Source: an uncultured Rubritalea sp. (GTDB taxonomy: Bacteria; Verrucomicrobiota; Verrucomicrobiia; Verrucomicrobiales; Akkermansiaceae). Taken from it: a stretch of 39,977 nucleotides of DNA. Within the stretch, counting starts at the first letter, position 1. Every line of letters starts with the position of its first letter. A program made the position numbers and the translations under genes. The notes beneath the pieces are model-generated. The model saw only the letters and a program-made list of their open reading frames with translations, was not told where the DNA came from and made no database searches. The stretch covers positions 1 to 39,977 of the forward strand of contig CAKZNV010000103.1 of assembly GCA_937132085.1 (NCBI GenBank), in the 5' to 3' direction. Shown one piece after another: positions 9,338 through 14,846 of this stretch.

Positions 9338-11155
9338 TTAGATTTCTACAGTTTCTTTAGGTGGGTCGATCCATTTGTCATTTTCCTTGATGAGCTCGAT
9401 GAGTTTCTCGACGGCATCGGCTTCAGGGATGTTGAATTTCACTGGAGTCTTGTTGATGTAGAGATTGATCTTGTTAGGTGCTCCTCCGACGTAGCCGAAG
9501 TCTGCGTCAGCCATTTCACCAGGTCCATTGACGATGCAGCCCATGACTGCGATGCGGACGCCCTTGAGGTGACCAGTCGCTGCACGGATTTTCTGGGTGG
9601 TGTCTTGGAGGTTAAAGAGTGTTCGTCCACATGATGGGCAGGCTACATAGTCTGTTTTGAATATACGTGTGCCTGCTGCTTGGAGGATGTTGTAGGCTAG
9701 GCGGAGGCTTTGTCCTGGTGCGTGTTCGCCCTGGATGATGATAGCGTCGCCGATGCCGTCGCAGAGTAGTGTGCCTAGATTTCTCGCTGCGGTGAGGAGT
9801 GTGTCTTGGAAATCTTTCTCTGGATCAGTGGACGGAGTGAATGTGTCTTTGAGAAGGATAGGGTGGTGAGCGTCTAGCTTGCAGGCTAGTAGTCTGAATG
9901 CGTGGATGACTGCCATGCCGATGTCATCAGGAATGGTGACGAGGGTCGGAGTCGGGTTAGCATTGATCTCACGGATGGCATCACGGTCGAGTGGGTTGAT
10001 CTCTACAGCACCAGATGTCTCAAGGACGATTTCTGGTTTGAAATCACCCATCTTTTCGATTTTATGAGCGACTGCGTTCCACTTCTCTTGTGAGGTGAAG
10101 ACTCTAACAGTATTCGCTCCGCCGAGTTTGTAGCCGTTGATTTCGATCGCTTGAGATTTACGGCGGTTGTAGGAGAAAGGATCGTAGCTTAGTGGGCCAC
10201 GTTGCAAGGTGTTTTGTTCCCAGAGCTCGTGAGTGCAGGCGCTGTCGTCGATGTTTTTGACGAGTGCTTTTGCTACGGGGATTTCACGGATGGCGTCTTC
10301 TGTTAGAGAGACGCGGATGGTGTCGCCGATGCCGTCTGAGAGGAGTGAACCAATACCGATGGCGGATTTGATGCGACCGTCTTCGCCATCACCAGCTTCG
10401 GTTACGCCGAGGTGGATAGGGTAGTTCCAGCCATCATCCTCACCTAGAGCAGAGAGTCTGGCTACGAGGAGACGATAAGCTTCTACCATGACTTTCGGGT
10501 TACTTGCCTTCATGGAGAAGACGAAATTATGGTAATCATTTTCTCTGGCGATACGTGCGAACTCAAGAGCTGACTCTACCATGCCGAGTGGTGTGTCACC
10601 GTAGCGGTTCATGATGCGGTCAGAGAGTGAGCCGTGGTTAGTGCCGATGCGCATTGCACGGCCGAGTTCTTTGCAGAGGTGGACGAGTGGTGTGAATTCC
10701 TCACGGATACGCTCTAGTTCGTCAGAGTATTGATCATCTGTGTATTCACGAGTTTCAAATTTTTTCTTATCTGCGTAGTTACCTGGGTTGACGCGGATTT
10801 TCTCGACCCATTTAGCGGCTTCTAGAGCTGCATCTGGTTTAAAGTGGATATCTGCTACGAGAGGGACATCACATCCAGCAGCACGGACAGCGTCACGGAT
10901 GTTTTCTAGGTTTTGAGCGTATTTGGTAGTCTGGGCAGTGACACGGACGATTTCACATCCAGCTTCAGCGAGTTCTAGGATCTCTTTCACACAGGCATCA
11001 GTGTCTCTCGTGTCAGAAGTGATCATGGACTGGATGCGAATAGGGTTGTCTCCACCTACACCTACATTTCCGACCATTACTTCTCGCGATCTTCTGCGTT
11101 GGTATTCAAATAAGTCTGGGCAATAGGAGAGTGCGGTCTTTTCTGCGTCTGTCAT
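9338..11155 (-). CDS. ispG: 4-hydroxy-3-methylbut-2-en-1-yl diphosphate synthase, long form
   Basis: 605 residues, well above the roughly 370 of E. coli IspG, matching the long form with an inserted domain between the TIM barrel and the iron-sulfur domain (known from plants, Chlamydia and Bacteroidetes). The N-terminal barrel has IQSMITSDTRDTDACV and VADIHF. The C-terminal cluster domain has YVACPSCGRT (two Cys near 504-507) and VMGCIVNGPGE, giving the three ligands of the 4Fe-4S cluster. It catalyses the penultimate step of the MEP isoprenoid pathway in the cytoplasm. No SD is seen before the ATG at 11155. First gene of a probable ispG–CPBP–thiL operon. Confidence 0.95.
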   Translation of the reverse strand: MTDAEKTALSYCPDLFEYQRRRSREVMVGNVGVGGDNPIRIQSMITSDTRDTDACVKEILELAEAGCEIVRVTAQTTKYAQNLENIRDAVRAAGCDVPLVADIHFKPDAALEAAKWVEKIRVNPGNYADKKKFETREYTDDQYSDELERIREEFTPLVHLCKELGRAMRIGTNHGSLSDRIMNRYGDTPLGMVESALEFARIARENDYHNFVFSMKASNPKVMVEAYRLLVARLSALGEDDGWNYPIHLGVTEAGDGEDGRIKSAIGIGSLLSDGIGDTIRVSLTEDAIREIPVAKALVKNIDDSACTHELWEQNTLQRGPLSYDPFSYNRRKSQAIEINGYKLGGANTVRVFTSQEKWNAVAHKIEKMGDFKPEIVLETSGAVEINPLDRDAIREINANPTPTLVTIPDDIGMAVIHAFRLLACKLDAHHPILLKDTFTPSTDPEKDFQDTLLTAARNLGTLLCDGIGDAIIIQGEHAPGQSLRLAYNILQAAGTRIFKTDYVACPSCGRTLFNLQDTTQKIRAATGHLKGVRIAVMGCIVNGPGEMADADFGYVGGAPNKINLYINKTPVKFNIPEADAVEKLIELIKENDKWIDPPKETVEI

Positions 11156-11237
11156 GTTGTGAAGATCTATAGCCTAGAAAAGGTGAGACGTAAACATAGG
11201 AACGTTTTATTTATGAGGAAACATTCGATCAAAGAAA

Positions 11238-11266
11238 AAGCCTTACCCTGGAAAAGGGTAAGGCTT
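11238..11266 (-). terminator. Rho-independent terminator of the 11298-12032 gene
   Basis: Perfect 12-bp stem AAGCCTTACCCT (11238-11249) with 11255-11266 and loop GGAAA. On the minus strand it is followed by TTTTTC. It insulates ispG from the PEP-CTERM gene upstream. Confidence 0.92.
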
Positions 11267-11297
11267 CTAAAATACTAAACTAAATTGTTACATGAAC

Positions 11298-12032
11298 TTA
11301 TCTCTTTCTGCGCAGGAGGCATAAGCTTCCTAGGCCAAGAAGTAGAGTAGATGAAGGCTCTGGGACTGACTCTGCAGGAGATCCTGTTGCATTCCAAGCT
11401 ATCGGTCCAGCCTTAGCGCTAGTGAAAATGACTCCATCTGAGCTGAAGCTAGGGATTGATTGGGCGCCATCAGAGTCGCCTCCTTCACCTAGATTAGGGT
11501 TGCTCCCAGATACTGTGAACTGAGCGGAAAAGGTATTAAATACGCTATGAGCTTGATCCACATCGTAATTGTTTAGAGTGGCAATAAAGTCAGTTGTCTG
11601 ATCATTGATGGATCTATTGACTTTGAAGGCGGGATCTTCATCCCAAGTAACACCACTTTCAGGTCCTGTAGCGCCGATATCTGTGTAATCGATATTGAGA
11701 GTGATGATATCACCTGCTGTAGCGTTAGGGCTGACGATGTTGTAAATATAAGAATCGTGTGAGCCAACTCCAGTTCCCGTCCCTGTTATTTGTGTCGTGA
11801 CGAGTGAGTAACTAGATTCACTGTTATAAGCTAAGGAAACGATCGCTGTGAAATCCATAGGATCGAGGCCGACTGGGCTCCATGTTCCTGTGGCAGTGGC
11901 TTGATTACCATTTTGCGATAATGTTGGGGCATTATAAACAGGGTTAGCTGTATAAGTAGGAGCAGCTTCTTGAGCATGAACGAGAGCTGTTGAGGCTAGC
12001 GCTCCTAGGGTAATTATGTGGGGGATTTTCAT
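11298..12032 (-). CDS. PEP-CTERM secreted protein, YNAP/GTWSP family, paralogue 1
   Basis: 244 residues: signal peptide (MKIPHIITLGALASTALVHA), body, and C-terminal PEP-CTERM tag (VPEPSS, helix, RRKR). The body shares ordered blocks with the two genes at 12252 and 13924: NPVYNAP, ATGTWSPVGLDPMDF, VSLAYNSES, TGTGTGVGSHDSYIY, DPAFKVNRSI, SVFNTFSAQFTV and SSDGVIFTSAKAGP. The likely fold is an all-beta secreted domain (inference). I do not recognise the family beyond the tag. The only cysteine is in the tag helix. Expression probably starts from the shared promoter element at 12065-12106. A C-rich leader, not a Shine-Dalgarno, precedes the ATG. Confidence 0.87.
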   Translation of the reverse strand: MKIPHIITLGALASTALVHAQEAAPTYTANPVYNAPTLSQNGNQATATGTWSPVGLDPMDFTAIVSLAYNSESSYSLVTTQITGTGTGVGSHDSYIYNIVSPNATAGDIITLNIDYTDIGATGPESGVTWDEDPAFKVNRSINDQTTDFIATLNNYDVDQAHSVFNTFSAQFTVSGSNPNLGEGGDSDGAQSIPSFSSDGVIFTSAKAGPIAWNATGSPAESVPEPSSTLLLGLGSLCLLRRKR

Positions 12033-12064
12033 AATATTATTAGTTGGGGGTGAATGAATTTTCT

Positions 12065-12106
12065 CTAATTAAGGTTAACTTACTCTATTTCTTGTTGTCT
12101 TGTAAA
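12065..12106 (-). promoter_or_regulatory. Shared promoter/leader element of PEP-CTERM paralogue 1
   Basis: On the minus strand: TTTACA (12101-12106), 13 nt, TAGAGT (12082-12087), 9 nt, TTAATTAG (12065-12072), then 32 nt to the ATG. The same order and spacings occur before 12968 and 14628. The -10-like hexamer is the weakest of the three copies. Confidence 0.55.
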
Positions 12107-12193
12107 TGATTATTTTTAATAAAAGCTAAATTATTTTATAAAACATAGGCTCAAGGGGACTTTTTTTTGTGGAAATGAGTAATTTTTATGCAA

Positions 12194-12228
12194 AAAAGAT
12201 CTCAACCTTATTCAGGATGAGATCTTTT
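12194..12228 (-). terminator. Rho-independent terminator of the 12252-12968 gene
   Basis: Stem AAAAGATCTCA (12194-12204) with TGAGATCTTTT (12218-12228), continued by CC/GG around the loop. On the minus strand it runs into TTTTTT. A G8 run (12243-12250) lies between the stop codon and this hairpin. It is related in sequence to the terminator at 13866-13896. Confidence 0.88.
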
Positions 12229-12251
12229 ATTGCTTTGGTTCTGGGGGGGGA

Positions 12252-12968
12252 TTATCTTTTTCTACGGAGGAGGAACAAGCTTCCTAATCCTAGGAGGAGA
12301 GTAGATGAAGGTTCTGGGACTGATGTAGTTTCGGTTGCGCTCCAGGCTACTGGACCAGCTTTAGCACTAGTGAAGATGACTCCATCTGAGCTGAACTGAG
12401 CAATTTTCTCTCCGTCTTCAGATTTTTCAACGTCATTTTGTTTCACTGTGAACTCCGCTGAGAATTGTTTGAAAACACTGAGTTCTTCGCTGACCTCATA
12501 TTCAGTAAGGTAGGCAGTGAGAGCGGTGTTGTCGCTTGAGATTGATCTATTGACTTTGAATCCAGGATCTCTGTCCCAGAAGATATTTGCTTCAGGTCCG
12601 TTTTTGTCGATGCCTGTGTAGTCGACATTTAGTCTAACGACGTCGCCAGCAATCGCATTATCACTGTATAGAGTGTAGATATAAGAATCATTGGCTCCAA
12701 CTCCTGTGCCTGTTCCAGTGATTTGTTCAGCTTTGAGGCTATAGGTAGTCTCGCTGTCGTAAGCTAGGGAGACTACGACTCCGAAGTCCATAGGATCAAG
12801 ACCGATAGGGCTCCAAGTGCCTGTTATGTTAGCGGTCTGGCCTTTGCCTTCAATTTCAGGAGCATTGTAGACAGGGTTAGCTTTGTAGTTGGTTGACTCT
12901 TCTTTAGCTTGGGCGCTGACGACAGTAGCAAGCGCCACTAATGTAGCAGTTGTAATAGGATATTTCAT
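12252..12968 (-). CDS. PEP-CTERM secreted protein, YNAP/GTWSP family, paralogue 2
   Basis: 238 residues: signal peptide (MKYPITTATLVALATVVSAQA), family blocks NPVYNAP, ITGTWSPIGLDPMDFG, VSLAYDSE, TGTGTGVGANDSYIY, DPGFKVNRSI, SVFKQFSAEFTV and SSDGVIFTSAKAGPVAW, then the PEP-CTERM tag (SVPEPSS, helix, RRKR). No cysteine. More charged (Lys/Glu) than its paralogues. The mRNA leader is very C-rich (C5, C4 and C6 tracts directly before AAAAAATG), with no Shine-Dalgarno. Promoter element at 13001-13042, with the best -10 (TATAAT) of the three copies. It stands back-to-back with the dehydrogenase gene at 13182. Confidence 0.87.
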   Translation of the reverse strand: MKYPITTATLVALATVVSAQAKEESTNYKANPVYNAPEIEGKGQTANITGTWSPIGLDPMDFGVVVSLAYDSETTYSLKAEQITGTGTGVGANDSYIYTLYSDNAIAGDVVRLNVDYTGIDKNGPEANIFWDRDPGFKVNRSISSDNTALTAYLTEYEVSEELSVFKQFSAEFTVKQNDVEKSEDGEKIAQFSSDGVIFTSAKAGPVAWSATETTSVPEPSSTLLLGLGSLFLLRRKR

Positions 12969-13000
12969 TTTTTGGGGGGTGGGGTTGGGGGTGATTATTA

Positions 13001-13042
13001 CTAATTAAGATGAGCGTATTATAAAAGATCAGAGATTGTAAA
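13001..13042 (-). promoter_or_regulatory. Shared promoter/leader element of PEP-CTERM paralogue 2
   Basis: On the minus strand: TTTACA (13037-13042), 13 nt, TATAAT (13018-13023), 9 nt, TTAATTAG (13001-13008), then 32 nt to the ATG. TATAAT is a consensus sigma-70 -10 box, but TTTACA is 4 nt too close for a standard -35. TTAATTAG would fall at the 5' end of the transcript. Confidence 0.6.
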
Positions 13043-13181
13043 GTTGTTTTTTTGTAAAACACGGATGGTTAAGTTTTCTTAATAAAGTCGAGTTTAAAAT
13101 TAAGGGCTTAATATGGATTGTTTTGATTGATTTCTTAGGATTCTGCTAGACGGAGTAGTTGGTAACTCCTATTTAAAAACG

Positions 13182-13841
13182 GTGATCAACAATAAGGGAC
13201 ATGTGATTATCACTGGAGGAGGTGGTGATTTAGCTAAAGAGATCAAATCGACTTTGAGTTGTGCTGGTATGGCTGTTTCTAATCCTAAAAAATCAGAACT
13301 AAATGTAAGCTGTTCGGATAGCGTTAAAGGATACTTTGATCGCTTGGAGGGTATAGATTTGTTGATCTGTAATGCTGGAGTGACTGATGATGTGTTACTC
13401 CTGAAGATGGGGGAGTCCAGCTGGGACAAGGTGATGGATGTGAATCTAAAAGGAGCCTACTTAGTGGCGAAATCAGCGGCCAAGATGATGGTGAAGCATC
13501 GGCAAGGCCATATTGTTTTTATTTCTAGTCACTCAGCCTATCATCCACCATTGGGGCAGGCTAATTATGCTGCAGCTAAGGCTGGCTTAGAAGGTTTAGC
13601 GAAGTCAATGGCTGCTGAGCTGGGTAGTAGAAACGTGCGAGTGAATGTCATCGTTCCTGGATTTATGGAAACTAAGATGACTGAGGGCTTAACTGACGAA
13701 GTAAAGTCTGCTGCTATGAGCAAGCACTGCTTAGGTAGATTTAACGAAGCTAAATCGGTGGCAAAGTTTATCGAGAATTTACACCTTGAGATGGGGCATA
13801 CTTCGGGTCAGGTATTTCATCTAGATAGCAGAATCGTATGA
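13182..13841 (+). CDS. Short-chain dehydrogenase/reductase (FabG-like)
   Basis: 219 residues from a GTG; the frame stays open 51 nt further upstream without ATG, GTG or TTG. The N-terminal dinucleotide motif reads ITGGGGDLAKEI, in which an Asp sits where classical SDRs have the second Gly of TGxxxGxG. LICNAGV (NAG motif), VNLKGAYL, an active-site Ser in FISSHSAY, and NYAAAKAG (YxxxK) follow. So it is a complete classical-type SDR, slightly short for FabG (about 245). Substrate unknown: 3-oxoacyl-ACP reductase is the usual annotation, but there is no fab context. It sits alone on the plus strand between PEP-CTERM paralogues 2 and 3 and shares a terminator region with the latter. Confidence 0.85.
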   Translation: MINNKGHVIITGGGGDLAKEIKSTLSCAGMAVSNPKKSELNVSCSDSVKGYFDRLEGIDLLICNAGVTDDVLLLKMGESSWDKVMDVNLKGAYLVAKSAAKMMVKHRQGHIVFISSHSAYHPPLGQANYAAAKAGLEGLAKSMAAELGSRNVRVNVIVPGFMETKMTEGLTDEVKSAAMSKHCLGRFNEAKSVAKFIENLHLEMGHTSGQVFHLDSRIV

Positions 13842-13865
13842 TCTGCTAGATCTCTTATATACAAA

Positions 13866-13896
13866 AAGATCTCACCCTAAGTAAGGATGAGATCTT
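13866..13896. terminator. Terminator between converging dehydrogenase and PEP-CTERM paralogue 3
   Basis: Stem AAGATCTCA (13866-13874) with TGAGATCTT (13888-13896). On the minus strand it is followed by a T5 run (good terminator for 13924-14628). On the plus strand only a weak CTATT follows, so termination of the dehydrogenase may be partial. Confidence 0.8.
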
Positions 13897-13923
13897 CTAT
13901 TGTATTGTTAGTTCTTCGGGGGT

Positions 13924-14628
13924 TTATCGTCTTCTTCGAAGAGCGATTAAACTACCTAAGCCAAGTAAGAGCGCTGATGATGGCTCTGGGACTGCTTCTG
14001 TAGCACTCCATTCTACTGGACCTTCTTTCGCATTAATGAAGATGACTCCATCGGAGCTCATACTAGTAGGGTCGCTACCAGTATATTCATCATTTGTTAC
14101 GATAGTGAATGTTGATGAAAATCCATCAAACACACTATGTTCTAGAAGCGGATCATACGTGGTCAGAACGGCGTAAAGTGCTTCATCATCATTTGTGATA
14201 GCTCTATTCACTTTAAATCCAGGATCGTTGTCCCAGATAATGCCGGCTTCAGGACCTGTTTGGTCGATGCCTGTGTAGTTAATATTGACGTTAATTACAT
14301 CTCCAGGAGTGGGATTAGCACTATAGAGGGAGTAAACGTAGGAATCATGAGCTCCGACACCAGTTCCGGTGCCAGTGACTTGAGTCGCTACTAGGTCATA
14401 ATTTGATTCACTATTGTAAGCTAGTGAAACGATTGCGTTGAAGCCCATTGGGTCTAAACCTACTGGGCTCCAAGTTCCGGTTGCAGTCGATGTGTTACCA
14501 TCGCCTGATATGCTTGGTGCATTGTATGCGGGGTTAGCCGCGTATGTTTGCGAGTCACCCAAGCCTTGAGCGCCCGCAAAAGATGCGAGCGTCAGCAGTG
14601 CTGCTGTTGCTATTATTGGGGATTTCAT
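13924..14628 (-). CDS. PEP-CTERM secreted protein, YNAP/GTWSP family, paralogue 3
   Basis: 234 residues: signal peptide (MKSPIIATAALLTLASFAGAQ), family blocks NPAYNAP, ATGTWSPVGLDPMGF, VSLAYNSES, TGTGTGVGAHDSYVY, DPGFKVNRAI, SVFDGFSSTFTI and SSDGVIFINAKEGPVEW, then the PEP-CTERM tag (VPEPSS, helix, RRRR). No cysteine. Slightly more divergent than the other two (MGF for MDF, INAKEGP for TSAKAGP). Promoter element at 14663-14704. No Shine-Dalgarno; the leader holds ACAACCCTAA in place of the stronger C-runs of its sisters. Expected to be exported and processed by exosortase encoded elsewhere. Confidence 0.87.
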   Translation of the reverse strand: MKSPIIATAALLTLASFAGAQGLGDSQTYAANPAYNAPSISGDGNTSTATGTWSPVGLDPMGFNAIVSLAYNSESNYDLVATQVTGTGTGVGAHDSYVYSLYSANPTPGDVINVNINYTGIDQTGPEAGIIWDNDPGFKVNRAITNDDEALYAVLTTYDPLLEHSVFDGFSSTFTIVTNDEYTGSDPTSMSSDGVIFINAKEGPVEWSATEAVPEPSSALLLGLGSLIALRRRR

Positions 14629-14662
14629 AATATTAGTATTTTAGGGTTGTATAGCTTTATTA

Positions 14663-14704
14663 CTAATTAACAATACCTTATAATAATCGTTTGCTTGCAG
14701 TAAA
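14663..14704 (-). promoter_or_regulatory. Shared promoter/leader element of PEP-CTERM paralogue 3
   Basis: On the minus strand: TTTACT (14699-14704), 13 nt, TATTAT (14680-14685), 9 nt, TTAATTAG (14663-14670), then 34 nt to the ATG. It matches the two sister elements in order and inner spacing. Confidence 0.55.
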
Positions 14705-14846
14705 GAGTTTTTTGTAAATAGCGCTAATTTTACAGGTGTCGCAAAGCGTTATTTTAAAAAAATAGTGAGACTGCTAGGTGAAGAGTTGAAGTTGATGAGG
14801 TGGAGATTAAGATTGATTTCGGATGGATCCTTTTTAGGATGCGCAC

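Follow-up and report, generated by a model that had tools for sequence, protein, structure and literature searches.

The only promoter system described for PEP-CTERM genes is proteobacterial and is inapplicable to the locus analyzed here. In that system, a PrsR box ending in TTTACA is followed by a sigma-54 promoter (Haft et al. 2006, PMC1569441); motif 1 is 17 nt long, ends in TTTACA and precedes motif 2 by 63 nt on average, and the motif was found in Proteobacteria only (PMC1569441). The pepA gene is RpoN-dependent (PMC9850573). Mapped transcript starts of Akkermansia muciniphila are associated with -35 and TATAAT-like -10 elements (PMC4782308), and Akkermansia belongs to the organisms poor in Shine-Dalgarno sequences (PMC10783764). 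Our literature searches found nothing joining Rubritalea with PEP-CTERM, no description of PEP-CTERM gene leaders in Verrucomicrobiota, and no description of how the large exosortase-substrate sets of Verrucomicrobiota are controlled. In the present genome, such a set comprises about 126 PEP-CTERM genes above the Pfam cut-off.

We analyzed a 39,977-nt stretch of DNA (hereafter, the window) from an uncultured Rubritalea sp., and searched the genome of 4.46 Mb in 254 contigs to which it belongs. Two exosortases are encoded in the whole genome (G000:C203:29381 and G000:C49:37744), each within a separate polysaccharide gene cluster. The window encodes a family of three PEP-CTERM paralogues:

11298..12032, minus strand: gene 12032, PEP-CTERM paralogue, 244 aa
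12252..12968, minus strand: gene 12968, PEP-CTERM paralogue, 238 aa
13182..13841, plus strand: short-chain dehydrogenase (SDR) gene; two of the paralogues lie between it and ispG
13924..14628, minus strand: gene 14628, PEP-CTERM paralogue, 234 aa; this copy occupies the location shared with the relative G058

All three proteins contain a C-terminal match to Pfam PF07589 above the cut-off and are 56-61% identical to each other. A homologue search in genome_contigs yielded no match, and the structure model of the family is mostly beta, with a mean pLDDT of 56.5, a quality too low for a fold search. The nearby ispG protein (window 9338-11155) is 88% identical to its counterpart in an uncultured Rubritalea sp., which points to a Rubritalea-like verrucomicrobial genome as the source of the window.

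The pattern TTTAC-N14-TANNNT-N9-TTAATTAG is present upstream of all three paralogues with no mismatches. Its elements, along with a second -10 candidate, are located as follows:

12065-12106, minus strand: exact pattern match, gene 12032
12101..12106, minus strand: TTTACA, -35-like element
12082..12087, minus strand: TAGAGT, the -10 candidate of the first-pass annotation (13-nt spacing)
12077..12082, minus strand: TAAGTT, second -10 candidate (TAnGnT, 18-nt spacing)
12065..12072, minus strand: TTAATTAG, located close to or at the predicted start of transcription
13001-13042, minus strand: exact pattern match, gene 12968
13037..13042, minus strand: TTTACA, -35-like element
13018..13023, minus strand: TATAAT, the -10 candidate of the first-pass annotation
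13013..13018, minus strand: TACGCT, second -10 candidate (18-nt spacing)
13001..13008, minus strand: TTAATTAG
14663-14704, minus strand: exact pattern match, gene 14628
14699..14704, minus strand: TTTACT, -35-like element
14680..14685, minus strand: TATTAT, the -10 candidate of the first-pass annotation
14675..14680, minus strand: TAAGGT, second -10 candidate (18-nt spacing)
14663..14670, minus strand: TTAATTAG

The order of the elements, the 13- and 9-nt spacings, and the distances from the ATG (32, 32 and 34 nt), which the first-pass annotation had reported, were all reproduced at the three sites. The accompanying statement that the intervening DNA is unlike holds for the most part, but not for TAnGnT and several leader positions, which are invariant as well. 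TAnGnT (invariant columns T25, A26, G28 and T30 of the three-site alignment) overlaps TANNNT by one base; at all three sites, exactly 18 nt separate it from TTTAC[A/T] upstream, and 4 nt from TTAATTAG downstream. Extra copies of TTTACA are found 16 nt (12968) and 14 nt (14628) upstream of the main element. Window 14663-14800 also contains an inverted repeat, TGTAAA-N10-TTTACA, upstream of 14628, which was not found before 12032 or 12968.

The pattern marks a single family, as had been suggested: apart from those preceding the three paralogues, the 4.46-Mb genome contains no exact copy, and the window's other PEP-CTERM genes, 1592 and 3708, whose proteins are just 24-25% identical to the first paralogue, lack it. 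Allowing up to 3 mismatches added one match in the window (0.51 expected). The genome-wide motif scan that the first-pass annotation had proposed as a check singled out the family through exact matches, but not through relaxed ones: with up to 2 mismatches, there were 8 matches compared to 9 with the reversed control, that is, no excess. A profile model of the 50-nt site recovered the three paralogues with E-values of 2e-8 to 2e-7, the next match in the genome having an E-value of 0.06; the same profile, applied to 11 further genomes from the genus, produced a single match (E-value 0.97) and no credible one.

TTTACA, the 3' end of motif 1 in the PrsR/sigma-54 system, is also found before PEP-CTERM genes here (the main site of 14628 reads TTTACT), whereas motif 2 is absent at the three genes. 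There is no GG-N10-GC, the sigma-54 -24 GG / -12 GC motif, within 220 nt upstream of any of the three, and sigma-54-like sites were detected in 1 of the 114 PEP-CTERM upstream regions and in 5 of the 362 others. No PrsR was found above the curated cut-off, the best protein in the genome scoring 408.8 bits compared to the required 502.6. A promoter of the sigma-54/PrsR type is not supported, given the lack of GG-N10-GC and the below-cut-off score of the best PrsR-like protein.

The three sites are, in our assessment, probably the core promoter and the first transcribed stretch of a single small family of paralogues. Under this interpretation, TTTAC[A/T] would be the -35-like box, and there would be two overlapping candidates for the -10 box, TAnGnT (18-nt spacing) and TANNNT (13-nt spacing); with either candidate, transcription is predicted to start at or just before TTAATTAG, which could be the initial transcribed sequence or an operator. 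The resemblance of TTTAC[A/T] to TTGACA, the TA...T hexamers and a predicted start 25-45 nt before the ATG are points of likeness to housekeeping sigma-70-type promoters, from which the sites differ in that one component is off consensus on each reading, the 13-nt spacing on the one and the TAnGnT -10 box on the other, and in the presence at the start of TTAATTAG, which is not a general element of such promoters. The 13-nt spacing was correctly measured and called non-standard in the first-pass annotation, but it is not the only reading, given that TTTAC[A/T] is also found 18 nt before TAnGnT. Because this near-standard sigma-70 spacing is available, an unusual sigma factor is not needed, and the earlier proposal that TTTAC may be an alternative sigma-factor contact finds no support. 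The TAnGnT candidates match the -10 consensus TATAAT at 3 of the 6 positions, and the 13-nt candidates at 4 to 6, so that, with either the 13-nt spacing or the weak TAnGnT, neither reading makes a good textbook promoter. A consensus promoter scan with 16-18 nt spacing listed none of the three sites, and histograms of the spacing between -35-like and -10-like elements, drawn from 481 upstream regions, did not clearly favor either 13 or 18 nt.

Downstream of the predicted starts are short leaders, and each of the three genes has its own terminator-like hairpin:

12033..12064, minus strand: 32-nt leader of gene 12032; G-poor, unstructured, with CACCCCC (CCCCC at 12046-12050) and no Shine-Dalgarno-like sequence
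11236..11268, minus strand: terminator-like hairpin of gene 12032
12969..13000, minus strand: 32-nt leader of gene 12968, with three C-runs (12974-12991)
12194..12228, minus strand: terminator hairpin of gene 12968, AGATCTCATCCT...TGAGATCTTTTTT, with a stem nearly identical to that of 14628
14629..14662, minus strand: 34-nt leader of gene 14628, with CCC only
13864..13898, minus strand: terminator hairpin of gene 14628

None of the three leaders has a Shine-Dalgarno sequence; all are poor in G and predicted to be almost unstructured. The mRNA would begin with such a short leader, followed by the ATG. The terminator stem AGATCTCATCCT / TGAGATCTTTTT is common to 12968 and 14628, and no other such hairpin was detected in the roughly 1 Mb of sampled sequence. 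The three monocistronic genes would probably be jointly expressed by the housekeeping RNA polymerase. Given that the architecture is retained beyond the neutral expectation (see below) and is restricted to one family, co-regulation of the three is a fair inference, and they are probably switched on together. This much of the dedicated regulon proposed in the first-pass annotation is supported. A regulon extending across the surface proteins is not supported: there is no fourth exact copy of the pattern, and no regulon is seen across the approximately 126 PEP-CTERM genes. The 111 further PEP-CTERM upstream regions that were scored behave collectively like shuffled sequence at every score threshold, apart from one weak outlier, upstream of the PEP-CTERM gene C164:67970, which scores 13.8 compared to 32.6-35.0 for the three paralogues.

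A possible, albeit rather unlikely, alternative is that TTTAC, TTAATTAG or both are sites for a dedicated transcription factor with a tiny regulon, consisting of the three genes and possibly an exosortase/exopolysaccharide (EPS) cluster. Of the invariant blocks, TTAATTAG is the longest; it is close to a palindrome and ranks among the top 6 of 280 8-mers of the same composition by abundance in the sampled intergenic DNA (23 copies compared to a mean of 9.9), but the majority of these intergenic copies are not upstream of PEP-CTERM genes. As a general PEP-CTERM element, TTAATTAG was rejected: exact copies occur in 4 of the 114 PEP-CTERM and 4 of the 362 other upstream regions (p = 0.10), and 3 of the former 4 belong to this family. 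The extra TTTACA copies before 12968 and 14628 and the weak match at C164:67897, before another PEP-CTERM gene, are also compatible with such a factor; the spacing of the extra copies, however, is not fixed. The best core match outside the family, TATAATATGCTTATATTGATTAGAGAAAA, has 16 of the 17 invariant positions (C203:16568-16596; 0.067 such matches expected per genome under a third-order Markov model) and is situated between two genes of an exosortase/EPS cluster, in a 203-nt gap in which CTAATTAA is also found. The cluster encodes glycosyltransferases and a sugar transferase, with the exosortase 13 kb downstream of the match. This match is suggestive of a link between the family promoter and the exosortase/EPS cluster, but it has no TTTAC at the corresponding place, its ATG is about 90 nt away, and the aptness of its location was judged post hoc. 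The same region (G000:C203:16500-16690) contains an inverted repeat, TTTTACG...CGTAAAA, around CTAATTAA, in addition to the promoter-core-like site. A transposase-like gene with HTH_38 and rve domains (G000:C203, L330 18409-19365) is also present inside this cluster.

Returning to the core-promoter interpretation, we compared the conservation of the sites to the divergence of the coding sequences. At four-fold-degenerate sites, the paralogues are 30-43% identical, with 30% expected by chance, so these sites are saturated or nearly so, and most of the similarity should be gone from DNA that is free of constraint. By comparison, 20 of the 42 promoter columns at fixed distance from the ATG are invariant, whereas 500 random triples of upstream regions from other PEP-CTERM genes yielded at most 15; when the distance constraint was dropped, there were 21 invariant columns compared to at most 19 in the controls. 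Judging from the sequences, the promoter likeness is more than a residue of duplication and has been selectively kept. In the relative G058, the single orthologue occupies the position of 14628, on the far side of the SDR gene, and ispG adjoins the SDR gene; these two genes are also adjacent in L041 and L042. Because 12032 and 12968 lie here between genes that are adjacent in relatives, they are most simply interpreted as duplicates that moved together with their promoter and terminator. One copy would have stayed next to the SDR gene, in the ancestral position, two would have come to lie between ispG and the SDR gene, and the promoter, carried along with the gene at duplication, would have been retained by selection afterwards. 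The upstream region of the G058 orthologue contains no credible site of the pattern, so the evidence for conservation comes solely from three copies within a single genome, among which gene conversion may have occurred. That the likeness is a leftover of recent duplication or a product of gene conversion, in either case functionless, is very unlikely: the paralogues do occupy neighboring places, and 12968 and 14628 do share a terminator stem, but the degenerate sites are at or near saturation, and the conserved DNA is limited to short blocks at promoter positions, with the distance to the ATG differing by no more than 2 nt. The footprint retained in three saturated paralogues provides a testable promoter.

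A dedicated sigma factor for the three genes is unlikely, and an alternative sigma factor recognizing TTTAC-N13-TANNNT is highly improbable: TATAAT and TATTAT are closer to a -10 box than TAnGnT, and the 13-nt spacing is exact in all three copies, but the same TTTAC is spaced exactly 18 nt from TAnGnT, the full arrangement precedes no other gene in the genome, and -10 boxes of the TANNNT type belong to the housekeeping sigma factor.

The C-runs present in the leaders of 12032 and 12968, but not of 14628, are not confined to this family: sense-strand C-run leaders are found in about one fifth of the PEP-CTERM genes (e.g., in L124, L156, L165 and L190), across unrelated protein families. The general form of the leader, short, G-poor and without a Shine-Dalgarno sequence, resembles that of the Shine-Dalgarno-poor leaders of Bacteroidota and Akkermansia (PMC10783764), from which the present set differs in that a subset contains C-runs and the signal is concentrated in PEP-CTERM genes. 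Within the 60 nt preceding the ATG, a run of at least 5 C was detected in 18 of the 114 PEP-CTERM genes compared to 6 of the 362 others (one of the 6 itself being PEP-CTERM). This background is rough, because the genes were called with a simple script and the sampled DNA, about 1 Mb, came mostly from the vicinity of PEP-CTERM genes. G-runs showed no excess in the same upstream sets. Motif discovery on the C-run leaders returned the C-run itself and nothing else, and no coupling of TTAATTAG to the C-run class was found.

Several features were tried before the following associations of the C-run class were noted. Genes with a run of at least 4 C often start with Met-Asn (16 of 26, compared to 10 of the 88 without), and the LGLGG...RRRK tail is rare among them. 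Both associations persist with each protein family counted once: Met-Asn starts are found in 11 of 18 C-run families compared to 8 of 67 (p = 5e-5), and LGxGG tails in 2 of 18 compared to 32 of 67 (p = 0.006). The C-run leader class offers a testable division of the remaining PEP-CTERM genes. It is a doubtful but conceivable extension of these observations that TTAATTAG and the overlapping -10 form the operator-promoter of a small regulon joining the three surface proteins to the C203 exosortase/exopolysaccharide cluster, and that, in addition, the PEP-CTERM leader classes of the genus (C-run, Met-Asn and RRKR-type tail versus A-rich, Met-Lys and LGLGG...RRRK tail) may be handled or regulated apart, perhaps via the two exosortases. 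The C-run trend, in a weaker form, is also seen in two relatives, with p = 0.015 and 0.097 for the C-run excess, and p = 0.036 and 0.020 for the link to Met-Asn.
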